Below, piece by piece: positions 19,053 to 44,308 of a stretch of DNA of 64,000 nucleotides (position 1 is its first letter; every line of letters begins with the position of its first letter). Source of the DNA: Berryella intestinalis (GTDB lineage Bacteria; Actinomycetota; Coriobacteriia; Coriobacteriales; Eggerthellaceae); the NCBI RefSeq assembly GCF_000814825.1, contig NZ_CP009302.1, positions 1,054,001 to 1,118,000 on the forward strand. Reading direction: 5' to 3'. A program made the translations under genes and the position numbers. The notes under the pieces are model-generated. The model searched no databases and was not told where the DNA came from. It saw only the letters and a list, made by a program, of their open reading frames with translations.

Positions 19053-20687
19053 ATGGGCGACTCGATCATATACCGCACGACGCGCCTGTTCACCGGCTTG
19101 GGCGACGAGGCGCTGCCGGGTTCGTTCTCCGTCGAGGACGGCAGGTTCGCCTCGGTCGGCGCATACGAGGATGCCGATGCGCTGGCCGCGCGAAGCGGGG
19201 CGAGCGTCGTCGATCTGGGCGACGCCTTCGTCTGCGCGGGCTTCCACGACTCCCACCTGCACTTCTTCCACTCGGCCCTGTACTCTTCGCCCCTCGCGCT
19301 GCACTGTCGGGGCAAAAACGAGCAGGACTGCGTCGATGCGCTCGCCCCGCTTGCGGCCCGCCGGCCCGAGACGGGCTGGCTTCTCGCCCAGGGATGGCGC
19401 CAGCCCCATTGGAACCCGCCCACCACGCCGTCCAAGCGCTCGCTCGATGCCGTCTACCCCGATCGGCCCGTGGCGATGTACTCGGGAGACGCGCATACGC
19501 TGTGGCTGAACAGCAAAGCGATCGAGGAGCTGGGCCTGTCGGACGATTCGGAGGCCCCCGAGGGCGGAAGCTACGACCGCGACGAGAACGGCCGCCTCAC
19601 GGGCATCGTGCGCGAAGCGGCCGCCATGGCGCTCATGCCCCGCATCGTCGCGTCGTTTCGCACCGAGGAGCTGCTCGACGCCTACCGGGGCTTTCTGGCG
19701 AAGCTGGCCGAAAACGGCGTGACCTCGGTCTGCGACATGTCGCTCATGGCGGCGCCCGGCCTCGACTTCGTGCGCGACGACCTCTTCGCCGAGCTGCTGG
19801 CCCGCGAAGAGCTCACCTGCCGCATCCATCTGTTCCCCACGCTGCTCGAAGACCGCAGCCGCCTTCACGACCTGCAGGAAAGCCTCGCCTCGGACCGCCT
19901 GCGCGCATGCGGGTTCAAGCAGTTCTTCGACGGCGTGTCCAGCCAGCACACCGCCTGGGTGAACGAGCCCTACTCAAACGCGCGCTTCGAGGGCGACTGC
20001 GGGCGGCCCACCGTGGATCCGTCCATCATGCGCGACCTGGTCTTGGCGGCATGTGCCGAGGGCCAGGCCGTGCGCGTGCACGCCATCGGCGACGAGGCCA
20101 TCCACGTTATCCTGGACATCTTCGAGGAGGGGCTGGACGCGTTCGGCCCGCTTCCCGAAGGGCGAAGGCACTGCATCGAGCACCTCGAGAACTTCCAGCC
20201 CGACGACATCGGGCGGTTGGCGAAGCTGAACGTCGTCGCGGCGGTGCAGCCCATGCACATCACGCTCGACCCCGGAGCGCCCGAGGCTGACCTCGGAGCC
20301 GACCGCGTTCCCTACATGTGGCCGTTCGCCTCGCTGCTCGAATCGGGGGCGACCCTCGCCTTCGGCACCGACTCGCCCGTCGCCGACATCGATCCGCGCG
20401 CCGGTTTGTACACGGCGATCACGCGCAAGACCATACCCGAGGGCAACCCGCCCGAAGGATGGGTTCCCCGGGAAAAGATCGGCGCCGCCGACGCGCTGCG
20501 CGCCTATACGCTCGGGTCGGCCCGCGCGGCCGGACGCGAACGCGAGCTGGGAACCATCGAAGCGGGAAAGCTCGCCGACTTCGTGGTAATCGATCGCGAC
20601 CTGGCCTCATGCGACCCCGAGCTCATCTTGGACGCGCGCGTCGAGGCCACCTACGTGGGGGGCGCGTGCGTCTACAGGCGCTCCTAG
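19053..20687 (+). CDS. YtcJ-type amidohydrolase
   Basis: This 544-residue metal-dependent hydrolase of the amidohydrolase_3/YtcJ group shows metal-binding FHDSHLHFF near residue 70, HAIGDEA, the IEHLENF segment and the catalytic aspartate in GTDSPV. The ATG at 19053 has AAAGGAG five bases upstream, which is preferred over an upstream in-frame ATG. Substrates of this family are mostly unknown; N-formyl or N-acyl amines and imidic compounds have been reported for relatives. Its stop codon overlaps the convergent deformylase-like gene by four bases. Confidence 0.87.
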   Translation: MGDSIIYRTTRLFTGLGDEALPGSFSVEDGRFASVGAYEDADALAARSGASVVDLGDAFVCAGFHDSHLHFFHSALYSSPLALHCRGKNEQDCVDALAPLAARRPETGWLLAQGWRQPHWNPPTTPSKRSLDAVYPDRPVAMYSGDAHTLWLNSKAIEELGLSDDSEAPEGGSYDRDENGRLTGIVREAAAMALMPRIVASFRTEELLDAYRGFLAKLAENGVTSVCDMSLMAAPGLDFVRDDLFAELLAREELTCRIHLFPTLLEDRSRLHDLQESLASDRLRACGFKQFFDGVSSQHTAWVNEPYSNARFEGDCGRPTVDPSIMRDLVLAACAEGQAVRVHAIGDEAIHVILDIFEEGLDAFGPLPEGRRHCIEHLENFQPDDIGRLAKLNVVAAVQPMHITLDPGAPEADLGADRVPYMWPFASLLESGATLAFGTDSPVADIDPRAGLYTAITRKTIPEGNPPEGWVPREKIGAADALRAYTLGSARAAGRERELGTIEAGKLADFVVIDRDLASCDPELILDARVEATYVGGACVYRRS

Positions 20688-21103
20688 ACCAGCTTTCCCT
20701 TGCAATGGTCGATCATGTGCTGGACGATCTGCGCGGTCCATCCGCGCAGCTCCTTTTTGCGCGGGACGAGGGCGCCGTCCACCAGCTCGTCGAAGGTGAC
20801 GAGGATCTGGTCGAAGCGCGTCGACTTGGTGGGAGCCTCATGCGATAGGCACGTCTCTTCCACGCGGGAGGGACGCAGGCCCCGCTTGAGCACAGGGTTG
20901 AACATGACGCGGGGACGGTCGTTGGAATCGAGGTACACCACCACCTGCTTGGCCTCCCCGATCTGGTTCGCGGCCAGGCAGGCCGCCTCGTCCAGCGACG
21001 CGAGGGTGTCCAGCAGATCCTGCGCGAGCCCGGCGTCTGCCGCGCTCGCCCGCTCGCAGGGAACCGACAACGACTCGACGTCTTTCACCAAGGGCTTGAT
21101 CAT
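20684..21103 (-). CDS. Peptide deformylase-like protein lacking the catalytic glutamate
   Basis: This 139-residue protein matches polypeptide deformylase in order: CLAANQIG (motif 1, residues 42-49), EETCLS with metal ligand Cys85 (motif 2), and the metal-ligand histidines of motif 3 at 129 and 133. Motif 3 should read HExDH, but here it is HMIDH: the general base Glu is Met130 (ATG codon). The metal site looks intact, while normal deformylation is unlikely. It may be a paralogue with another role; the true def gene should be elsewhere. The start at 21103 follows AAGGAG. It lies downstream of the frameshifted PdxR-type gene. Confidence 0.8.
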   Translation of the reverse strand: MIKPLVKDVESLSVPCERASAADAGLAQDLLDTLASLDEAACLAANQIGEAKQVVVYLDSNDRPRVMFNPVLKRGLRPSRVEETCLSHEAPTKSTRFDQILVTFDELVDGALVPRKKELRGWTAQIVQHMIDHCKGKLV

Positions 21104-21195
21104 CGCACCCACCGCTCCTTCCCGTGCCGCGCACGGATATTCGACCGCTTTTCTCACGGGCGAAGTATCGCATAAAAGCCCTTCGGAGAGAAACG

Positions 21196-22672
21196 CTACC
21201 GTCCGATGCGCGCGGCTTCGACGGACGCCTCCAGCAACCCGGCCGCCCAAGCTGCGTCCGAACAGGATAAACGCGACACGTCGGCCACGATTCGCACCCG
21301 GTCGTCGCGATACCCGTGCTGTTTGGAAAACGAGGACAGCGGGCGAAACGGCGCTCGGCGCTCGAGCAGCTTTTCCGCAAGGACGCCTTCGTCCACGGAA
21401 AGCGGGCGGTTCAGGGCGATGAGGAAGTGAAGCCCGCTGTCCATGTTCTCGAAGGCGGCGAAGCTTCCCAGGCCCGTCGCCTTGATCTGAGCCGCCAGCT
21501 CGTCGCGCGCCGCTCGAAACGACGTCCTCAGCTTCATCGCATGGCGTTCGAACTCCCCCGTCTCCAGGATGCGAGCCAGGGAATCCTGAAGAAGCGAGCT
21601 CACCGTGCTGGAGTAGAAGCCCAGCCTCTCGTCGAAACGCTCCTTCAGGGGGGCGCAGGGGAAGCACCATGTAGGCGATGCGCATATCGGACCCGAGGCT
21701 TTTGCTGAACGTGTTCACGTAGACCACCGATCCGGACGAGTCGATGCTCTGAAGGGACGGGACGGGCCTTCCCGCCATCCGGAACTCGCAGTCGTAATCG
21801 TCCTCGATGACGATGCGGGACGGGTCCTCGGACGCCCAGGAAAGCAGCTCGTATCGCCGGGCGACCGACATGATGGCCCCGGTTGGGAACTGGTGGGACG
21901 GCATAACATGGGCGACCGTGGCCGGGGTCGCGCGCAGGGCCTCGACGATCATCCCGCACTCGTCGACGGGAAGGAGGGCGACCCGCGCCTCGTTCGCCTC
22001 GTAGAGCCGGGACAGCAGCGGGTACCCGGGATCCTCCACGGCGTAGACGCGGTTTCTCCCCAGCAGCTGGATCAGCAGGTTGTACAGCGTCGGAGCCCCC
22101 GCCCCCACCACGATGCGCGCCGGGTCGGCGTCCATCCCCCTGAACCGGCGGAGGTGTTCGGCGATCGCGCTGCGCAGGCGCGGGGACCCTTGGGGAGGAA
22201 GCGAGCGCGCCATGCCCGCGTCCTGCAGGGATGCGAGTTCGCGGCGCACGGCGCGCGCCCACACCCGGACCGTGCGCGCGTCGAACGGCGCGGGCGGGAC
22301 CTCCGCATCGCCTCCTTCCCCGAAGGACGGCGCGGTGGGCGGCGCCGCGTCCCGAGCCCCGCTCGGCTCGACCCTGCGCGCGTTTACGGCAGAGCCCCCG
22401 TCAAATCGCTCGGAGGGGTGCGCGGGGCCCGGCAGAGCGCAGGCGAAATAGCCCGTGCGGGGCACCGAGCGGACGTAGCCTTCCGCAACCAGCTGGGCGT
22501 AGGCCCCCTCGACGGTAACGAGGCTCACGCCCAGGTGCTCGGCTAGCGAGCGCTTGGACGGCAGCTTCTGATCGGGCGCTATGCTCCCGCCCTCGATATC
22601 GCCTCTGATGCATCGGTACAGGTGGTCGTAGAGCGCCGCGCCGCCGCGCTTTGACATGTCGTAGGTCAGCAT
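21196..22672 (-). pseudogene. pdxR: PdxR-type MocR regulator, frameshifted
   Basis: The N-terminal part (22672 to about 21654) has a GntR winged helix (LPSKRSLAEHLGVSLVTVEGAY) and then an aminotransferase-like domain including the PLP-lysine segment NTFSKSLGSDMR. At a C6 run (G6 at 21648-21653 on the given strand) the frame breaks. The remainder (ERLGFYSSTVSSLLQDSL through RIGR, stop at 21196) lies in another frame. Removing one C restores 491 residues, the normal MocR length. It is divergent from pdxS, the typical place for PdxR, the activator of pyridoxal phosphate synthesis. The cause could be recent decay, a slippage-based switch, or a sequence error. Confidence 0.82.
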
Positions 22673-22782: not shown

Positions 22783-23667
22783 ATGGAAGAAACGAAGGAA
22801 GACCGCGCAAAGCTCAACCGCGAACTCGCGCAGATGCTCAAGGGCGGCGTCATCATGGACGTCACCACGCCCGAACAGGCCCGTATCGCCGAGGAGGCCG
22901 GAGCGGCGGCCGTCATGGCCCTCGAGCGCATCCCCGCCGACATCCGCGCGGCGGGCGGGGTGTCCCGCATGAGCGATCCGCGCATGATCAAGGGGATCCA
23001 GCAGGCCGTGTCCATACCGGTCATGGCGAAGGTCCGCATCGGGCATTTCGTCGAAGCCCAGATCCTGGAAGCGATCGACATCGACTACATCGACGAGAGC
23101 GAAGTGCTCTCCCCCGCCGACAACGTCTACCACATCGACAAGACCGCCTTCAGGGCCCCGTTCGTCTGCGGCGCGCGCGATCTGGGCGAAGCGCTGCGGC
23201 GCATCGCCGAGGGCGCCTCGATGATCCGCACGAAGGGCGAGCCCGGAACCGGCGACATCGTGCAGGCAGTCACCCATATGCGCCTCATCAACAGCCAGAT
23301 CCGCCACGTTGTCTCGCTGAGGGACGACGAGCTGTTCGAAGAGGCGAAGCGCCTCCAGGTTCCCGTCGAGCTGGTGGGCTACGTGCACAGCACCGGCAAG
23401 CTGCCCGTGGTCAACTTCGCCGCGGGAGGCGTGGCCACCCCGGCCGACGCCGCCCTCATGATGCAGCTGGGCGCCGAGGGCGTGTTCGTCGGATCGGGCA
23501 TCTTCAAAAGCGGCGACCCCGAGAAGCGCGCCCGAGCGATCGTGGGAGCCGTCACGAACTTCGAGGATCCCGAGCGCATCGCCGCGCTGTCCGAGGACCT
23601 GGGCGAGGCCATGGTGGGCATCAACGAGGGCGAGATCGAGGTCCTCATGGCCGAACGCGGCAGGTAG
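22783..23667 (+). CDS. pdxS: Pyridoxal 5'-phosphate synthase, lyase subunit
   Basis: This 294-residue (beta/alpha)8-barrel enzyme makes pyridoxal 5'-phosphate from ribose 5-phosphate, glyceraldehyde 3-phosphate and ammonia from PdxT. Asp26 in GGVIMDV and Lys83 in MAKVRIGHF are catalytic positions, and a second lysine is in [12 protein letters not shown]. It is highly conserved over its full length. The ATG follows AAAGGAG. pdxT follows after six bases, giving a complete deoxyxylulose-independent B6 pathway. Confidence 0.97.
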
Positions 23668-23673
23668 GTCCTC

Positions 23674-24240
23674 ATGACCGTCGGAATACTCGCCGTCCAG
23701 GGGGCGTTCGCCGAGCACAGGAAGAAGATGGAGGCCCTGGGCGCCCCCGTCGTCGAGATCCGCCAAGCGGGGGATCTCGACCTTCCCTTCGACCGGCTCA
23801 TCCTACCCGGAGGGGAAAGCACCGTCCAACGCAGGCTCGTCCACGAAGACGGCCTGTTCGAAGGACTGAGAAAGCGGATCCTCGACGGGATGCCGACGCT
23901 GGGCACCTGCGCGGGCCTGATCCTGCTCGCCGAGCGGATCGAAGGAGAAGGAGACGGGGCGTTTTCGCCCTTCGCCACGCTTCCCGTATCCGTCCAGCGC
24001 AACGCCTACGGGCGCCAGCTGGGAAGCTTTCGCAGCTCGGGGGCTTTCGAGGGCGCGGGAGAGGTTCCCTTCACCTTCATCCGCGCACCGCGCATAACCG
24101 AGGTGCGAAAAGACGTCCGGGTTCTGGCACGCCATCGGGGAGATCCCGTCGCGGTGCGCCAGGGAAACCAGCTGGGGCTCGCGTTTCATCCCGAGCTCGA
24201 TGAGGACCTGGAGATACACCGGCTGTTCTTGTCGCTCTAA
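23674..24240 (+). CDS. pdxT: Pyridoxal 5'-phosphate synthase, glutaminase subunit
   Basis: This 188-residue class I glutamine amidotransferase supplies ammonia to PdxS. It has LPGGEST near the N-terminus, nucleophile Cys79 (GTCAG), and catalytic His172-x-Glu174 in FHPEL. The length is normal for PdxT. It is cotranscribed with pdxS, and the partners assemble into a 12+12 complex in characterised species. Confidence 0.96.
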   Translation: MTVGILAVQGAFAEHRKKMEALGAPVVEIRQAGDLDLPFDRLILPGGESTVQRRLVHEDGLFEGLRKRILDGMPTLGTCAGLILLAERIEGEGDGAFSPFATLPVSVQRNAYGRQLGSFRSSGAFEGAGEVPFTFIRAPRITEVRKDVRVLARHRGDPVAVRQGNQLGLAFHPELDEDLEIHRLFLSL

Positions 24241-36628: not shown

Positions 36629-36810
36629 TGGCTACGTTATGTGAATTTCCCTATTCTGCCATATCATGAAGCCGAGCGGGACGGAACTTCGCATCGATCG
36701 CCAAGGTATCGAAAAACGCATCGAACCCCACGGGTTAGCCGTCGCACCGAGCAGAAGCGCCCGCGCTGCGCTAGAATCATGCGGCAAGTATCTGACGAGA
36801 AAGGTTGTCG

Positions 36811-38613
36811 ATGAGCGAAAAGCGCCGCCGCACGTTTTCCGAAGCGCTGAGCAGCGTTCCGTTCTCGCCCTATCTCCACGGCCTTCCCGAGATCCTCTTG
36901 TACCAGGCCCTCACCAAGACCGCGCTGGCCGTGTGCATCTTCGCGCTGAAGCACGCGGCCGCAGCCATCCTCTGGGCCGCAGACAAACCCGCCATCACCA
37001 GCAGCGACATCCCCTTTTTGCTCAGAACGTGGCAAGGGTGGCTCATCTTGTGCATCGGGACGCTCGCGCTGTTCGCCTACGCGGCCTTCGACGTGAACGC
37101 CATGATCATCATGAGCCGCAATATCCTGCATCAGCAGGGCAAGCGCATAACCTCGGTCATCGCCGAAGGGGTTTCGACCCTTCCCCGCCTGCTTTCCCCG
37201 GTCGGGTTCCTCGCGGTGGCCTACCTCGCCTTCATCGCGCCGCTTGCTTTCAGGGAGCTGGGCATCAGCCTGTCGTTTTCCCTTGTGGTCCCCGATTTCA
37301 TCATGTCGGTGGTCCTCGCCGATCCCGCGACTGCGGCGCTGTGGCGCGCCTTCCAGGCCCTCACCGTGTTCGTCAACGTCTCCTGCATACTCACCTTCCA
37401 TTTCATCGTTTTGGGCGACCTCTCCCCCAAAGATGCGATCGTGCAGGCGTTTTCGCTGTTCAGAAGGGAATGGCGCTTCATTCTGAAACGCTATGCCGCC
37501 TTTCTGGCCAAAGCGGCCGGCGTCCTGGCGATCGTCGCTGCGCTGTGCGCCGCTCTTCCCCTCGCCGCACTCGAGCTGTCCGGCGCCGAGGGTTCGGCGC
37601 GCCACACGGCCCTCATCTTCACCCTCGCTTTGTCCCTCATCGGCTTCGGCGGGTTCCTGGCCGTGTTCGGTCCGCTGCAATTCGTATGCCTGACCTCGAT
37701 ATACGAAGCCCTCGTCGATCCGAGCGAAGCGCCCCGGCTCCCGCGGGCGAAGCGCGGGGTCTTCTTCGGCTGCACAGCCGCCGCGGCGGTCGCGCTGTGC
37801 GCGGGCATTGCGGTTCTGGCCGCCCCGTCGTTTAACCAGCTGTTCCCCACGACGACCCCGGTCCAGGTGATAGCGCATCGCGGAGGGGGCTTCCTTTCTA
37901 CCGAGAACACCGCCGAATCCATCGCAGCGGCGGCGCAGCATCGCGTTTACGCCTCGGAGATCGACGTGCAGCGCACGAAAGACGGGCGCTACGTCGTTCA
38001 CCACGACAACACGTTCAAGCGGCTATGCGGCGTCGACCGGGCCGTTTCCGATATGACGCTCGACGAGATCAAGGGGCTGTCCGTGCGCGATCCGAACGAT
38101 CCCGCTCGCTCGGTCCCCATAGCGACGCTCGAAGAGGCGCTCGAGGCGGCGAAGGGCCGCGTGCACCTCTACATCGAGCTGAAGGGGCCGACGGCCGATC
38201 GGGCCATGGCCGACGACGTGTACCGGGCGGTGAGGGACGCGGGCATGCTCGAGCAGTGCTCGATCATCGGATTGGACTACGACCTCATCGACTACGTGGA
38301 ATCCGAGCATCCCGACGCGCAGACCCTCTACCTGTGCTTCTACGCGCTGGGCAACCTCGAGGACCTCAACGCCGACGGCATCGGGCTCGAAGCGGAAAGC
38401 GCGACGCCCGAAAACGTCGAGCGCATAAAGGAGGCGGGCAAGCGCGTCGATGTATGGACCTGCAACGAGCCCCGGACGCTTGCGCGGTTCCTCTTTAGCG
38501 AGGTCGACGGCGTCATAACCGACCGGATAGACTTGGCCGAAGAAACGCTCGATGCGGTCGCGAGCCAGTCCGATCTGGGGCGCGTCGCCTTCTTCGCCAC
38601 GTCGAACCTCTAG
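36811..38613 (+). CDS. Glycerophosphodiester phosphodiesterase with N-terminal membrane domain
   Basis: This is a 600-residue two-part protein. Residues 1 to about 345 form a membrane domain with roughly seven helices, of the type named glycerophosphoryl diester phosphodiesterase membrane domain. The C-terminal part is a GDPD barrel with VIAHRGGGFLSTENTAESI, EIDVQRTKDGRYVVHHDNTF (catalytic His pair and Glu-x-Asp) and an IELKGP strand. It probably cleaves glycerophosphodiesters or related membrane or teichoic acid products at the cell surface. The ATG at 36811 follows GAAAGG. Confidence 0.92.
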   Translation: MSEKRRRTFSEALSSVPFSPYLHGLPEILLYQALTKTALAVCIFALKHAAAAILWAADKPAITSSDIPFLLRTWQGWLILCIGTLALFAYAAFDVNAMIIMSRNILHQQGKRITSVIAEGVSTLPRLLSPVGFLAVAYLAFIAPLAFRELGISLSFSLVVPDFIMSVVLADPATAALWRAFQALTVFVNVSCILTFHFIVLGDLSPKDAIVQAFSLFRREWRFILKRYAAFLAKAAGVLAIVAALCAALPLAALELSGAEGSARHTALIFTLALSLIGFGGFLAVFGPLQFVCLTSIYEALVDPSEAPRLPRAKRGVFFGCTAAAAVALCAGIAVLAAPSFNQLFPTTTPVQVIAHRGGGFLSTENTAESIAAAAQHRVYASEIDVQRTKDGRYVVHHDNTFKRLCGVDRAVSDMTLDEIKGLSVRDPNDPARSVPIATLEEALEAAKGRVHLYIELKGPTADRAMADDVYRAVRDAGMLEQCSIIGLDYDLIDYVESEHPDAQTLYLCFYALGNLEDLNADGIGLEAESATPENVERIKEAGKRVDVWTCNEPRTLARFLFSEVDGVITDRIDLAEETLDAVASQSDLGRVAFFATSNL

Positions 38614-38678: not shown

Positions 38679-39623
38679 CTAGTCCCGTTCGGGCTCGCGC
38701 GAACCCAGGTAGATGCCGAACAGCACCACGGCTCCGCCCACCACCTGCTGCAAGGAGACCGATTCTCCCAGCACGAGCGCGCCGAACACGACCCCCAGCA
38801 CGGGTATGAGGTTCAGGAGGGACACCGCCGTGGCCGCCGATATGCCCTCGAGTCCCCAGTTGTACAGGATGTAAGCGGCAAACGAGCACCCGACGACGAG
38901 GAAGAGCAGCGCAAGGGCGCTGTCGGGCCCCAACTGCTGCGTCTGGTTCGCATCGACCAGCGCCAGCGGCACGAACAGAAGCGCTCCGAACACGCTCTGG
39001 ACGGCGGAAAGGTCGAACGACGACACCTCGGCCGAAACCTTGCGCACGATGAAGTTGTAGAACGCCCAGGCGACGCCGGCCGCCATGAGGAAGACCACCC
39101 CGGCCAGCTCGTTTCTCCCCGGCTCGACGGGCCCGGAGGCCGACGCGACGATGACGGCCACGCCGATGAACGCGAGCGCCATGCCCGCGACCTGGACGAC
39201 GGTCGGGCGCTTGCGGTAGACCAGGAACTCCAGAAACGCCGTGAGCGCGGGAAACGACGCCACGATAAGCGAGCAGTTCGTTGCGCTCGTGTACTTCACG
39301 CCGATGTTCTCGAAACCGAAATAGCAGGTGATACCCAAAAAGCCCGACAGGGCCACCAGCTTGAGCGTCTCGCGGTCGAACCCGAAGAGCTGGAAGAGCG
39401 CGCCTTGGCCCTCCACGGCCCCCTCGGACAAGCGCGGCGAGCCCTTCATCCGCGCGAAGGCGAACTTGAACAGCATGAACAATGCCGCAGCGCAGGCGAA
39501 GCGGACGAGCCCCGTCGTAAACGGCGCCATCGACTGATAGACGTACTTGGTGGCGACGAAAGAGGCGCTCCAGATGACCATCGACAACGCGGCCGCCAGG
39601 AAATGCGCCCGATACGACCTCAC
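38679..39623 (-). CDS. EamA/DMT-family transporter
   Basis: This 314-residue membrane protein has two EamA repeats (HFLAAALSMVIWSASFVATKYVYQ and the second-half GVVFLMAAGVAWAFYNFIVRK). It begins with GTG at 39623 inside the stop codon of the upstream MocR-like gene (GTGA), so the two are coupled. The longer upstream frame is not used. The divergent ilvA and upstream ridA suggest an exporter for an amino acid or a reactive amine product, but the substrate is unproven. Confidence 0.88.
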   Translation of the reverse strand: MRSYRAHFLAAALSMVIWSASFVATKYVYQSMAPFTTGLVRFACAAALFMLFKFAFARMKGSPRLSEGAVEGQGALFQLFGFDRETLKLVALSGFLGITCYFGFENIGVKYTSATNCSLIVASFPALTAFLEFLVYRKRPTVVQVAGMALAFIGVAVIVASASGPVEPGRNELAGVVFLMAAGVAWAFYNFIVRKVSAEVSSFDLSAVQSVFGALLFVPLALVDANQTQQLGPDSALALLFLVVGCSFAAYILYNWGLEGISAATAVSLLNLIPVLGVVFGALVLGESVSLQQVVGGAVVLFGIYLGSREPERD

Positions 39624-40798
39624 AGGCCCTCCCTCGAACGCAGGCCGGGCGCGAGGAGCACGCCGAGCGCTTCGGGCACCTCGTCCGGGGACATGCCGGC
39701 GTACCCGATGACGAGCGTGCTGCTGCCCTGGGTTCCGCGGCTCCAGTACGAATCGAGGAACCTCACCGCGCAACCCCGTTCCCGATGCGTTTCCCGCACC
39801 GTGCGCGCCAGATCGGACGGGAGGTCGAGGGTGAAGTGGAGGCCCGTCTGGCATCCTCGCACGCGCGAGGACAGCCCCATGCGCTCGAGCGTGGACAGCG
39901 CCGCCTCGAGGGTCGCCCGGTACTTGCGGCGCATGCGGGCCACGTGGCGCGCGAACTCGCCCGATCCGATGAACTCCGCGAGCACCAACTGCTCGAGGTT
40001 GGGTACGGAGTTGGAATGGAACCCCAGCTCGGCGGCGAAGCGCACCGCGAGGTGGGGCGGCAAGACCAGATACCCCGCCCTCACGCCCGGAGCGATGGTG
40101 CGGGAAAAGGTGTTCACGTAGATCACGCGCTCGGTCGCGTCGAGGGCCCGCATGGCCGAAACCGCGCGCCCCTCGTGCACGAACTCGGACTCGTAGTCGT
40201 CTTCCACGATATAGCGCCGCTCATCGGCAGCGGCCCATGCAAGCAGGTCGTAGCGCCTCTGCAGGCTGGTGACCAGACCGGTGGGAACCTGGTGCGAGGG
40301 CAGCACATGGATCATGCGGGCGCCGCTTCTTTCCAGCTCGCGCGGGATCATGCCCTCCTCGTCGATGCGCACGCGCACCGTCTCGATCCCCTCGAATCGG
40401 TAGATCTTCTCCAGGCGCCCGTACCCCGGGTCCTCCAAGGCCATGGATCCGTCGCGGCCCAGCAGGCGGGCTATGATGCTGTAGAGGGACTGGGCTCCGG
40501 CGCCAATGACCACCTGATCGGCCGACACCAGCATCCCACGATGCTCGCGCAGGTGCCCCGCGATGGCGCGGCGCACCTCGACCATGCCCTGGGCCGGAGC
40601 GGGCGCGAGCAGCCGCGCGTCGCTTCGGGACTCCAGCACGTTGCGCGTGATGGACAGCCATTGCTCGTAGGGAAACGACCCGGCAAGCGGGGTCGAACCG
40701 GTGAAGTCGTAGCGGGCCCTCACCCGCTTGCGGCCCGAGAACAAAGGCTCCACCGCAGCGGAAGGGATCCTATCGGCAGCGCGGCCCTCGTCGATCAT
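39620..40798 (-). CDS. MocR-like aminotransferase-fold protein without HTH or PLP lysine
   Basis: This 392-residue protein corresponds to the aminotransferase-like half of MocR regulators (YDFTGSTPLAGSFPYEQW, VEDPGYGRLEKIYRFEG-type segment, YIVEDDYESEF, LPSHQVPTG). It starts directly at that half: the GntR winged helix is missing, and only 14 bases separate it from the ridA stop. The lysine that should hold PLP (NTFSK in MocR proteins) is Arg233 (NTFSRTIAPG, codon CGC). It may bind PLP or an amino acid without catalysis, or act on a partner. It is in an operon with ridA and an EamA exporter. Confidence 0.78.
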   Translation of the reverse strand: MIDEGRAADRIPSAAVEPLFSGRKRVRARYDFTGSTPLAGSFPYEQWLSITRNVLESRSDARLLAPAPAQGMVEVRRAIAGHLREHRGMLVSADQVVIGAGAQSLYSIIARLLGRDGSMALEDPGYGRLEKIYRFEGIETVRVRIDEEGMIPRELERSGARMIHVLPSHQVPTGLVTSLQRRYDLLAWAAADERRYIVEDDYESEFVHEGRAVSAMRALDATERVIYVNTFSRTIAPGVRAGYLVLPPHLAVRFAAELGFHSNSVPNLEQLVLAEFIGSGEFARHVARMRRKYRATLEAALSTLERMGLSSRVRGCQTGLHFTLDLPSDLARTVRETHRERGCAVRFLDSYWSRGTQGSSTLVIGYAGMSPDEVPEALGVLLAPGLRSREGL

Positions 40799-40812: not shown

Positions 40813-41190
40813 CTAGCCGACGACGGCTATGACTTCGACCTCGACCAGGGCGCCCTTGGGCAGACGCGCCACCTCGACCGCCGAGCGGCTGGGCAGGTGC
40901 GAGGGGAAGCTTTCGGCGTACACCTCGTTGAACGCGGCGAAGTCGTCCATGTTGTCGAGGAAGCAGGTGGTTTTCACCACCTGGTCGAACGAAGAGCCCG
41001 CAGCCTCGAGGATCGCGCGGACGTTCTTCATCACCTGGGCCGTCTGCGACCTGATGTCGGAACCGACGATCTCGCCGGTCTCGGGATCGAGGGGGATCTG
41101 GCCGCTGGCGAACAGAAAACCGCCCACCACGTTGCCCTGGACGTAGGGACCAATTGCGGCGGGAGCGTGAGGAGTGCTGACGATTTGCAT
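40813..41190 (-). CDS. ridA: RidA family enamine/imine deaminase
   Basis: This 125-residue trimeric deaminase hydrolyses reactive enamines such as 2-aminoacrylate and 2-aminocrotonate released by PLP dehydratases. It shows [27 protein letters not shown], the arginine-bearing region [16 protein letters not shown], and the C-terminal family motif [19 protein letters not shown]. It is divergent from ilvA, whose product is exactly such an enamine, so the pair forms a coherent threonine/serine deamination and detoxification unit. Confidence 0.94.
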
Positions 41191-41282: not shown

Positions 41283-42494
41283 ATGTTGACGTTGGAAAAA
41301 TTCGAAGAAGCTGCTGAAAAAGTCCGTCAGGTAACGCAGGAGACCAAGCTCATTTACAGCGCCTACTATTCGGAGGCGACGGGCAACCGCGTCTGGTTCA
41401 AGCCCGAGAACATGCAGCGCACGGGCGCCTACAAGGTGCGCGGGGCGTACTACAAGATCTCCACCCTGACCGACGAGGAGCGCTCCCGCGGCCTGATCAC
41501 GGCAAGCGCGGGCAACCACGCGCAGGGCGTGGCCTACGCCGCCCAGAAGTTCGGCGTGAAGGCCACCATCGTGATGCCCACCACCACGCCGCTCATCAAG
41601 GTCGAGCGCACCAAGGCCTACGGGGCCGACGTCGTGCTGGCAGGCGGCGTGTACGACGAAGCGTGCGAGCACGCCTACCGGCTTGCCGACCAGCACGGCT
41701 ACACCTTCATCCACCCCTTCAACGACCTCACCGTGGCCACCGGCCAGGGAACCATCGCCATGGAGATCGTCCAGGAGCTCCCCTTGGTCGAATACATCCT
41801 CGTGCCCATCGGCGGGGGCGGACTCGCCACCGGCGTGAGCGCGCTTGCCAAGCTGCTGAACCCCAACATCAAGGTGATCGGGGTCGAGCCGGCGGGTGCG
41901 GCCTGCATGAAGGCCTCGTTCGCCGCGGGCGAGGTGGTGAAGCTCGACCACGCCAACACCATCGCCGACGGCACCGCGGTGCTCGAACCGGGAGACAAGC
42001 TGTTCCCCCACCTGCGCGACAACCTCGACGACATCGTCACGGTCGAAGACGACGAGCTGATCGTCGCCTTCCTCGACATGGTGGAAAACCACAAGACCGT
42101 GGTCGAGAACTCGGGCCTGCTCACCGTGGCGGCGCTGTCGCACCTCGGTGTGAGGGACAAGAAGGTCGTGAGCATCCTGTCGGGCGGAAACATGGACGTC
42201 ATCACCATGTCGTCGGTCGTGCAGCGCGGCCTCATCATGCGCGACCGCATCTTCACCGTCTCGGTGCTTCTGCCCGACCGCCCCGGCGAGCTGGTCCGCG
42301 TGGCCGAAACCGTCGCGAACAGCAACGGCAACGTCATCCGCCTCGACCACAACCAGTTCGTGTGCGCGAACCGCAACGCCGCCGTGGAGCTGCGCCTTAC
42401 CATCGAGGCGTTCGGCCACGACCACAAGTACCAGATCGTCCAAGCGCTCAAAGACGCCGGACTGGAAACCGAGATCATCCAAACCCAGCTGTAG
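41283..42494 (+). CDS. ilvA: Threonine ammonia-lyase (PLP-dependent, with ACT domain)
   Basis: This 403-residue enzyme deaminates threonine (and serine) to 2-oxobutyrate (pyruvate). The PLP lysine is Lys51 in RTGAYKVRGA, with SAGNHAQGVA and the glycine-rich GGGGLATG phosphate loop. The C-terminal 75 residues form one ACT-like domain (FTVSVLLPDRPGELVRVAETV). The single domain and length fit the catabolic/short IlvA type often called TdcB-like, not the two-ACT biosynthetic form. The ATG follows GAAAGGG. Confidence 0.93.
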   Translation: MLTLEKFEEAAEKVRQVTQETKLIYSAYYSEATGNRVWFKPENMQRTGAYKVRGAYYKISTLTDEERSRGLITASAGNHAQGVAYAAQKFGVKATIVMPTTTPLIKVERTKAYGADVVLAGGVYDEACEHAYRLADQHGYTFIHPFNDLTVATGQGTIAMEIVQELPLVEYILVPIGGGGLATGVSALAKLLNPNIKVIGVEPAGAACMKASFAAGEVVKLDHANTIADGTAVLEPGDKLFPHLRDNLDDIVTVEDDELIVAFLDMVENHKTVVENSGLLTVAALSHLGVRDKKVVSILSGGNMDVITMSSVVQRGLIMRDRIFTVSVLLPDRPGELVRVAETVANSNGNVIRLDHNQFVCANRNAAVELRLTIEAFGHDHKYQIVQALKDAGLETEIIQTQL

Positions 42495-42529: not shown

Positions 42530-44308
42530 CTAATCCCGGGAAAGCGCGAAGAAGAGGCGGCGGGCCTCGGCGCCGTACATCTTGGTGTAGCGGTACCATA
42601 GATAGAGGTACTCGCCCACAGGGTCGCCGCAGGCGTCTTTGTACAGCGCCCAGATGAACCAGTAGAAGCTCGCGATCGCCGTGTAGGCGATGCAATGGAA
42701 GAGCTCCTCGTCGGTCGGGGGGCGCCTGAAGTACTGCTCGATCACCTCGCGCGCCCGGTCGAGCGAATAGTCGCTGCAGCAGATGAAGGTGCCCAGGTCG
42801 CTGGCGTAGTCGGACATGCCGGAGTACTCCCAGTCGATAAGGTCCATCCCGCCGTCGTACACGAGGAAGTTCGGCGAGTACGAATCGTTGTGGCACAGGC
42901 AGCGGCGGGCTCCGATGGCTCGGGCGCGCTCGGCGACCCAATCCATCATGTCCGCGATCTCCCGGTAATCCTTGAACATCAGGCGCCTCTGGGCGTCCAG
43001 CAGCCCCGTGGTCTCCTTGGTCTTCTGGTAGACGTCGAAGTCGAAGCCGGAATCGCCCTCGTAGGAATGGAGGGTGTTCAGCATCGCAAGCGCTTGCGCG
43101 ACCTGATCCGGGTCGCCGTAGTCGAGCTCGGCGCACTCATTCAGGTAGCGGGAGATCTTCCAGCCCTCGTCCTCGTCCTCGTGCAGATAGGTCGAATCGA
43201 GTCCGAGCGAGCTCGCAACGCGCTGCGAGAACGTCTCGCTCTTCCTATTGACGAGGTCTTCGGTTCCGGCGCCCGGATGACGGTACACGTAGGCCCTTTC
43301 GGCAACCGCGAAGCGAAACGACAGGTTGGTAAGCCCCTGCTTGATGGGGACGATGTCGCGAATATCCTGCTTGGCGCAGCCAAGCACCGCGCAGATGTTG
43401 TCCATGATCCGAGAATCGATGTTGTCGATGAACGCCGAATCGAACGCGCGCAGTTCATCGAGGGAATCGAATTCCCAGATCTCGCCCGGCTCGTAGCAGC
43501 GCATCACCATGTCGAGCCTATCGACGTTGTCCAGGTAGACGTCCTCCCAGAGCTTTCCGATCGTCGTATGGTGGTCGTAAACGGCGTTAAGCTCCCTTAG
43601 GAAGCCCTCGCAAAATGCACGGTCCCAGTACGTATGCCCCATCATCACCCACGCGTCGCGCCCTCCGACGGTGGCGCCCGTGATGCGCCGATCGGCGCCC
43701 TCCGTCTCCAGGCAGTACTCGTCGGTCTCCCCTTCCACGTACAGGGCCGAGTAGTACGAACGGTAGACGTAGCGGTCGAACGGGTTCGCCGTGAAATAGT
43801 CGTCCGACGAGCACACGTAGGTGTTGCCCAGGATCGACTCCACGCATTTAACGGTCGAATGGTTGTTGCGGGACGCATACTCGTTGTTCACGACGATCGA
43901 TACGCCGAATTCGTCGCCCAGGTAGAAGAACTTCTCCTTCATGTACCCGACGACGACCGTGATGTCGTCGATCCCCGCTTCTTTGAGCTGGCGGATCTGG
44001 CGCTCGATGAGCACCTCGCCCTTCACGCGCAGCAGGCCCTTGGGCGTTTCGTAGGACAGGGGCACGAAGCGGGACGACAGCCCGGCCGCCATGATGACCG
44101 CATTGCGCACCCTGTAGGGATCGAGCAGCCGAAGGCCCTTGGGGTTCACCTCGTTCGCCTCGCTCAGGCAGCCGTCGAGGCGCAGGCGCTCCACCGACGA
44201 ATCAACCGAATCGAGCGAAAGACCCGTCGCCTCGGAAATGAACCGGCGCGTCGAACCCGGATGGCCGACGCAGCAGTTCAGAATGGAGAAATCGGACGAA
44301 TTGAGCAT
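42530..44308 (-). CDS. HTH - phosphocholine cytidylyltransferase (LicC-like) - choline kinase (LicA-like) fusion
   Basis: This is a 592-residue three-part protein. Residues 1-65 look like a small winged helix (RRFISEATGLSLDSVDSSVERLRLDG). Residues 68 to about 290 are a nucleotidyltransferase with AVIMAAGLSSRF and TPKGLLRVKGEVLIERQI. The C-terminal 290 residues are a choline/aminoglycoside-type kinase with catalytic loop CHNDSYSPNF and metal-binding LIDWEYSG. The two enzyme domains would phosphorylate choline (or a similar alcohol) and activate it as a CDP derivative for decorating surface polymers, as LicA and LicC do separately. The substrate is inferred from domains. Confidence 0.88.
   Translation of the reverse strand: MLNSSDFSILNCCVGHPGSTRRFISEATGLSLDSVDSSVERLRLDGCLSEANEVNPKGLRLLDPYRVRNAVIMAAGLSSRFVPLSYETPKGLLRVKGEVLIERQIRQLKEAGIDDITVVVGYMKEKFFYLGDEFGVSIVVNNEYASRNNHSTVKCVESILGNTYVCSSDDYFTANPFDRYVYRSYYSALYVEGETDEYCLETEGADRRITGATVGGRDAWVMMGHTYWDRAFCEGFLRELNAVYDHHTTIGKLWEDVYLDNVDRLDMVMRCYEPGEIWEFDSLDELRAFDSAFIDNIDSRIMDNICAVLGCAKQDIRDIVPIKQGLTNLSFRFAVAERAYVYRHPGAGTEDLVNRKSETFSQRVASSLGLDSTYLHEDEDEGWKISRYLNECAELDYGDPDQVAQALAMLNTLHSYEGDSGFDFDVYQKTKETTGLLDAQRRLMFKDYREIADMMDWVAERARAIGARRCLCHNDSYSPNFLVYDGGMDLIDWEYSGMSDYASDLGTFICCSDYSLDRAREVIEQYFRRPPTDEELFHCIAYTAIASFYWFIWALYKDACGDPVGEYLYLWYRYTKMYGAEARRLFFALSRD

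Follow-up and report, generated by a model that had tools for sequence, protein, structure and literature searches.

A stand-alone PdxR-type effector domain without the Schiff-base lysine in Berryella intestinalis, and apparent recurrent loss of this lysine in pdxST-linked PdxR regulators

Within the 64,000-nucleotide stretch of the Berryella intestinalis genome that we analysed (hereafter, the window), we found an intact gene for a stand-alone aminotransferase-fold domain of the PdxR type, in which arginine (Arg233) takes the place of the lysine that forms the Schiff base with pyridoxal phosphate (PLP), and from which the N-terminal GntR domain is missing (Table 1). Comparison with a sister species suggests that this protein is not simply the product of decay. 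In addition, a survey of its relatives points to several independent losses of the same lysine in PdxR regulators encoded beside pdxST, and this recurrent loss appears to us to be the part most worth following.

Table 1. Features of the window discussed in the text
Feature	Position	Strand	Evidence
EamA/DMT exporter	38679..39623	-	Pfam
Stand-alone PdxR-type aminotransferase-fold domain, Arg233 for the PLP lysine, without GntR	39620..40798	-	Pfam, NCBIfam, alignment, AlphaFold
Arg233 codon CGC (equivalent of GabR Lys312)	40100..40102	-	alignment
ridA (Rid family deaminase), upstream, same orientation, 14-nt gap	40813..41190	-	Pfam, NCBIfam
ilvA, threonine ammonia-lyase, divergent	41283..42494	+	Pfam, NCBIfam
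Open frame with GntR-bearing, lysine-type PdxR, divergent from pdxS	20684..22672	-	Pfam, GntR profile
pdxS (PLP synthase), neighbour of the GntR-bearing PdxR	22783..23667	+	
pdxT-like ORF after pdxS (presumed from sequence and position)	23674..24240	+	

The open reading frame of the stand-alone gene encodes 392 amino acids and fills its interval exactly, with the ATG at 40798 and the stop codon at 39620-39622. Aminotran_1_2 (residues 67-379) is the sole Pfam domain of the product, and neither Pfam nor a local GntR profile built from its relatives detected a GntR domain in the gene. A six-frame scan of the window with the same profile returned a single GntR domain, located in the separate PdxR listed in Table 1. 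Among NCBIfam models, the best match was to PdxR, which describes the MocR-type regulator of vitamin B6 synthesis; the score of 371.9 bits exceeds the cut-off (320), but only positions 91-447 of the model's 448 are covered, so that the GntR half is left out. The initial annotation, which was made from the sequence alone, had described a MocR-like protein that lacks a DNA-binding domain and begins at the aminotransferase half, and both statements were borne out. Of the features that define the MocR subfamily, the protein thus has the fold-type-I aminotransferase-like domain, and has neither the N-terminal GntR winged helix-turn-helix nor the Schiff-base lysine; Arg233 likewise stands in place of the catalytic lysine of class I aminotransferases. 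Without a GntR domain, the product is unlikely to bind DNA on its own.

AlphaFold predicted a complete aminotransferase fold (pLDDT 92.1, pTM 0.89), with confidence below 50 at residues 1-21. The closest solved fold to this model was GabR (8vxk; Z 46.7, rmsd 1.9 over 358), and PdxR of B. clausii (7pq9) scored Z 45.2 with an rmsd of 1.9 over 360 and 33% identity. In its domain limits and fold, the protein is similar to the isolated C-terminal domain of B. subtilis GabR (5t4j, 5x03, 8vxk), but the latter was separated in the laboratory, whereas the former is a natural gene product. Judged from these matches, the protein clearly belongs to the PdxR (vitamin B6) lineage, and it would be the isolated effector half of such a regulator.

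As the initial annotation had proposed, Arg233 replaces the Schiff-base lysine, since it aligns with both GabR Lys312 and the lysine of B. clausii PdxR (FSRT versus FSKS). Residues Y126, R128, D200, Y202, and R240 correspond in the alignment to GabR Y205, R207, D279, Y281, and R319, and these are kept, whereas Phe250, Lys312, and Arg430 of GabR are changed to V171, R233, and G368, respectively (roles of the GabR residues are taken from PMC6917764). V171, at the site of the Phe250 that cages PLP, is the sole valine among 198 aligned rows, two of which are gapped there. Glycine at the site of Arg430, which binds the substrate carboxylate in GabR, makes an amino-acid ligand appear less likely. 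However, this site is Arg in only 8 of 178 relatives of the lysine type and in none of 20 lysine-less sequences, and Gly368 therefore does not single out the stand-alone protein.

Two readings of this altered site can be set aside with some assurance. That the protein is a working aminotransferase, in which arginine or some other residue has taken over the role of the lysine, strikes us as very improbable: the fold is present and most of the pocket is intact, but the lysine of fold-type-I transaminases anchors the cofactor and also serves as general base, the substrate-carboxylate arginine is missing as well, and the nearest relatives are regulators. The earlier suggestion that the protein may be non-catalytic gains support, by inference, from the absence of the Schiff-base lysine. 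Hardly credible, and already largely refuted, is a sequencing or annotation artefact, that is, a wrong frame or base errors. The window's own PdxR is frameshifted at a C-rich stretch, so errors are possible in this assembly; against this, CGC is at least two changes away from AAA or AAG, so that a single base-call error does not explain Arg233, and the frame is conserved both over 102 codons in another species and along nearly its full length when compared with PdxRs.

That other species is the sister species (G001), whose RidA and IlvA are 92% and 97% identical to those of the window, and which holds a remnant of the stand-alone gene between ridA and a phosphoribosyltransferase gene. The remnant aligns to about 315 of the 1179 bases, with large deletions and no insertions. 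The gaps measure 329, 242, 200, and 86 bases, and the last two, which are split by a 5-base match, may represent one deletion. The called ATG is also found in the remnant (MIEEGR versus MIDEGR). Substitutions between the gene and the remnant number 13, 11, and 34 at codon positions 1, 2, and 3 (binomial p of 7e-5 against equal rates), and over the 102 comparable codons there is no in-frame stop and dN/dS is 0.247, which indicates purifying selection on the protein after its lineage parted from that of G001. The corresponding ratios are 0.106 for RidA, 0.032 for IlvA, and 0.059 for the phosphoribosyltransferase; constraint on the stand-alone gene is therefore weaker than on its neighbours, but clear. 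Its dS of 0.52 is close to theirs (0.45, 0.45, and 0.60 in the same order), which together with the dN/dS argues that most of the divergence arose under selection on the protein, and its GC content by codon position resembles that of the neighbours. The codon pattern and the common ATG indicate that selection maintained the aminotransferase-only form over much of the period after the two species diverged, and that its loss in G001 came later. A broken frame or a neutral codon pattern would mark a pseudogene; the G001 copy qualifies as one, and the stand-alone gene, with its intact frame, does not.

The main rival to our preferred explanation, which we consider doubtful without dismissing it, is that the gene is a relic, namely an extra PdxR copy that lost its DNA-binding half and its lysine, was functional for a time and is now disappearing, its intact frame surviving through recency or through translational coupling to EamA. 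The extensive deletions in G001 would fit such a history, as would the long branch of the protein, the departure of both V171 and R233 from the pocket consensus, and the GTGA overlap with EamA. However, the codon pattern relative to the remnant partly rejects decay as the whole story, and the low dN/dS without in-frame stops over the part surviving in both species, a dS near that of the neighbours and a neighbour-like codon-position GC all speak against it. We withdrew one further argument, in which an arginine in the G001 remnant was taken as proof that the arginine is old: the codon is part of a six-base microhomology (TCCCGC) at the junction of a deletion; its source is therefore ambiguous, and it gives no age for the arginine.

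Relatives were collected from 138 Eggerthellaceae genomes (53 of them matching at E<=1e-60), from 395 genomes of the order (107 of them matching at E<=1e-70, using the Arg-type sequence L018 as query) and from a scan of named genomes. The last yielded at least 593 candidate loci, of which the best 80 were taken; because its query alignment consisted of Arg-type members, these 80 may lean toward the Arg type. The resulting 285 loci gave 265 MocR-type ORFs and, once duplicates and rows with more than 30% gaps around the lysine site had been removed, 198 distinct sequences. Viral contigs contained no relative of the stand-alone protein. The site of interest is occupied by Lys in 178 of the 198, Arg in 16 (the stand-alone protein included), Asn in two, and Gln and His in one each; alignment, which had been proposed as a check on the conservation of Arg233, therefore confirms lysine as the usual residue and also shows that the arginine is not unique. 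Sequence errors could account for the isolated occurrences of Asn, Gln, and His; in L283, the sequence with His, conservation around the site is poor.

Lysine-less proteins are found at the canonical locus. Among 85 PdxRs of the order that are divergent from pdxS (19-967 bases apart), 74 have Lys, eight Arg, two Asn, and one Gln; in the named genomes, the corresponding counts are 24 Lys and one Arg (Bullifex porci). GntR-bearing, pdxS-divergent proteins with Arg, Asn, or Gln at the site include L227, L234, L021, L278, L058, and L166, as well as L018, L022, L030, L034, L036, and L059. The stand-alone protein is like the latter six in having Arg at the lysine site and most of the pocket, but they retain GntR and their position beside pdxS. 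All 19 of the other lysine-less relatives have a GntR domain and match the PdxR model, and 15 match Aminotran_1_2 (E<=0.001 for both models). The pocket is largely preserved across the 20 lysine-less sequences, with D200 and R240 in all 20, Y126 in 19, Y202 in 18, and R128 in 11; the lysine-type relatives have D200 in 176 of 178, R240 in 178, Y126 in 159, and Y202 in 150, and at the R128 site they carry Arg (76/178) or Lys (80/178). Such retention of the pyridine Asp and phosphate Arg fits a possible non-covalent binding of B6 by lysine-less PdxRs.

On a FastTree tree of 197 rows (one row having been removed for gaps) that was built without the lysine column, the lysine label changes 13 times, and at least eight of these changes are forced by starred branches. 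The firmest cases are an Arg clade spanning four genera (L019/L030/L034/L036; support 100/99 in a smaller tree of 66 rows) and the Oscillospiraceae-type sequences L132, L189, and L191 (FastTree support 98). These three and L149 are Arg-type PdxR-like regulators from Oscillospiraceae-type genomes and Streptococcus porci; no pdxS was found near them in the stretches analysed, and the ORF that follows L149 begins, on a reading of its sequence, like an ArgC protein.

The local profile detected GntR in 190 of the 198 distinct relatives. The eight without it are the stand-alone gene, L233, L153, L170, L119, L004, L011, and L012, of which L153 and L170 run into contig ends; L004, L011, and L012 are only distantly related and fall outside the main group. 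In L119 (2062-3230, plus strand, genome G043), a pdxS-divergent PdxR is seemingly split, with its GntR and aminotransferase parts in different frames. L233 (669-1859, minus strand, genome G144), from another family of the order, is a second GntR-less, aminotransferase-only PdxR-type gene; it encodes 396 amino acids and keeps the lysine.

In the best tree of 66 rows, the stand-alone protein groups with L018 and L022, which are Arg-type and pdxS-divergent (support 87/71), and its terminal branch is longer than any other (1.54; median, 0.36). Under this grouping the lysine would have been lost first and GntR afterwards, and we lean toward that order of events in its lineage. Grouping with the genus's own PdxR from G001 (L010) alone was not rejected (p-AU 0.137), grouping with L010 plus L007 was rejected (p-AU 0.019), and the 197-row tree fixes no position for the protein; on these trees, the gene may alternatively have arisen by recent duplication of the PdxR native to the genus.

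Unlike the pdxS-divergent PdxR genes, the stand-alone gene lies beside ridA and about 17 kb from pdxST, which has a PdxR of its own. That PdxR is frameshifted after ...YMVLP at the C-rich stretch, and its frame continues into peptide deformylase. Both halves are similarly constrained against G001, where the gene is intact (dN/dS 0.209 and 0.214), and the frameshift is therefore either recent or a sequencing error. In the window's genome, then, PdxR is broken and the stand-alone domain is intact, and in G001 it is the other way round; with two genomes only, these opposite states may be a coincidence.

The neighbours of the stand-alone gene are positioned and oriented as the initial annotation had stated. 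We infer cotranscription of ridA, the stand-alone gene and EamA from their spacing only; the likely GTG start of EamA (39621-39623) overlaps the stop codon of the stand-alone gene (GTGA). Two further observations concern the flanks. A nucleotidyltransferase fused to a choline-kinase-like domain (42530-44308, minus strand), which we take to be LicC/LicA-like, is kept beside ilvA in the congener G003 at 62% identity. On the other side, a membrane-domain glycerophosphodiester phosphodiesterase (36805-38613, plus strand) and EamA sit between genes that are close neighbours in G001, and neither has a match within 12 kb around the G001 locus.

From these neighbours, the initial annotation had drawn a theme of threonine/serine deamination or export, which found little support. 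We regard it as improbable that the protein is a sensor of threonine/serine or of 2-aminoacrylate stress working together with RidA and IlvA. In its favour, ridA adjoins the gene on the same strand with ilvA divergent. Five MocR regulogs are reported to include RidA, and PdxQ regulons to include DMT transporters (PMC5320631); the MocR-like PtsJ was enriched under 2-aminoacrylate stress (PMC12172467). However, G003 has both ridA and ilvA, and no match to the stand-alone gene was found there within 14 kb around them; in G002, the fourth member of the genus, IlvA itself had no match at E<=1e-80. Across 287 loci, which are mostly short (the search covers a few kb at most of them, with a median of 4.6 kb for the 198 representatives), matches at E<=1e-5 were confined to the window's genome for EamA, and to that genome, G001, and G003 for RidA, with none outside the genus; the ridA, MocR-like, EamA order was not found elsewhere in this set. 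Among the 138 family genomes searched, the 137 besides the window's own also contained no EamA relative at E<=1e-40. The theme is weakened further by the PdxR lineage of the protein, whose relatives sit beside pdxST, by Gly368 at the Arg430 site (though Arg is rare there in lysine-type relatives too), and by the absence of an internal aldimine, without which the usual exchange to an external aldimine would be unavailable. The annotation had also reasoned that homologues with GntR and lysine in the same context would point to a decayed regulator. Among the 287 loci, the RidA/EamA context was confined to the genus, so no such homologues were found as worded, but relatives in the pdxST context do have GntR, with Lys or another residue at the site.

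We tentatively favour, at somewhat less than even confidence, the explanation that the stand-alone protein is a non-catalytic, B6-binding modulator that acts through dimers, possibly mixed, without binding DNA. It would correspond to the half of a PdxR-type MocR regulator that binds the effector and dimerises; no internal aldimine could form in it, and it would therefore not be an enzyme. A B6 vitamer (PLP, PMP, or PNP) would be bound non-covalently in a pocket that retains the phosphate Arg, the pyridine Asp, and both stacking Tyr residues, and dimerisation, either with itself or with full-length PdxR, would tune or buffer the response to B6. Since the lysine has repeatedly disappeared from other PdxRs encoded at pdxST, a full-length, DNA-binding ancestor may have carried the arginine already. 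B. clausii PdxR (7pq9, 7zn5, 7zla) has a like aminotransferase-like half, phosphate Arg, pyridine Asp, and stacking Tyr, but differs in having GntR, the Schiff-base Lys, and the cage Phe.

An experimental precedent is EnuR (PMC8739950). On its own, its domain folds and forms dimers whether or not PLP is bound, and the domain of the Lys302His mutant, a MocR protein without the Schiff-base lysine, still dimerises. In contrast to the stand-alone protein, this mutant was made in the laboratory, has His rather than Arg, and in its full-length form is a constitutive repressor that cannot hold PLP. The latter property counts against our explanation, since a protein that lacks the lysine may be unable to bind B6. 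Also against it may be counted the V171 change, the longest branch, the presence of R128 in just 11 of the 20 lysine-less sequences, the frameshift, as assembled, in PdxR as the natural partner, and the loss of the gene in G001. A broader proposal, in which PdxRs have repeatedly given up the covalent PLP-lysine bond, retain the remaining pocket and their position at pdxST, and so sense B6 non-covalently, and in which the stand-alone protein is an extreme outcome of this route, a DNA-binding-free, mixed-dimer modulator of PdxR, is speculative and, in our judgement, unlikely.

Two earlier papers take the Schiff-base lysine to be invariant among MocR proteins: Asp279 and Lys312 are described as conserved across all MocR clusters (PMC6677901), and the lysine as present in all MocR-like regulators (PMC2018728). 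Beyond the EnuR mutant, we recognised no lysine-less MocR protein in print, in a literature search that was short on subscription papers, MocR reviews among them. Yet 11 of 85 pdxS-divergent PdxRs from a single order are without the lysine, and the known sensing chemistry may therefore not hold for all PdxR-type regulators. If the lysine-less PdxRs still respond to B6, covalent capture of PLP would be dispensable for sensing; if they ignore it, pdxST in those genomes would be under a PdxR that is locked or triggered in some other way. The stand-alone copy would be a natural effector-domain-only protein that selection retained for a time.
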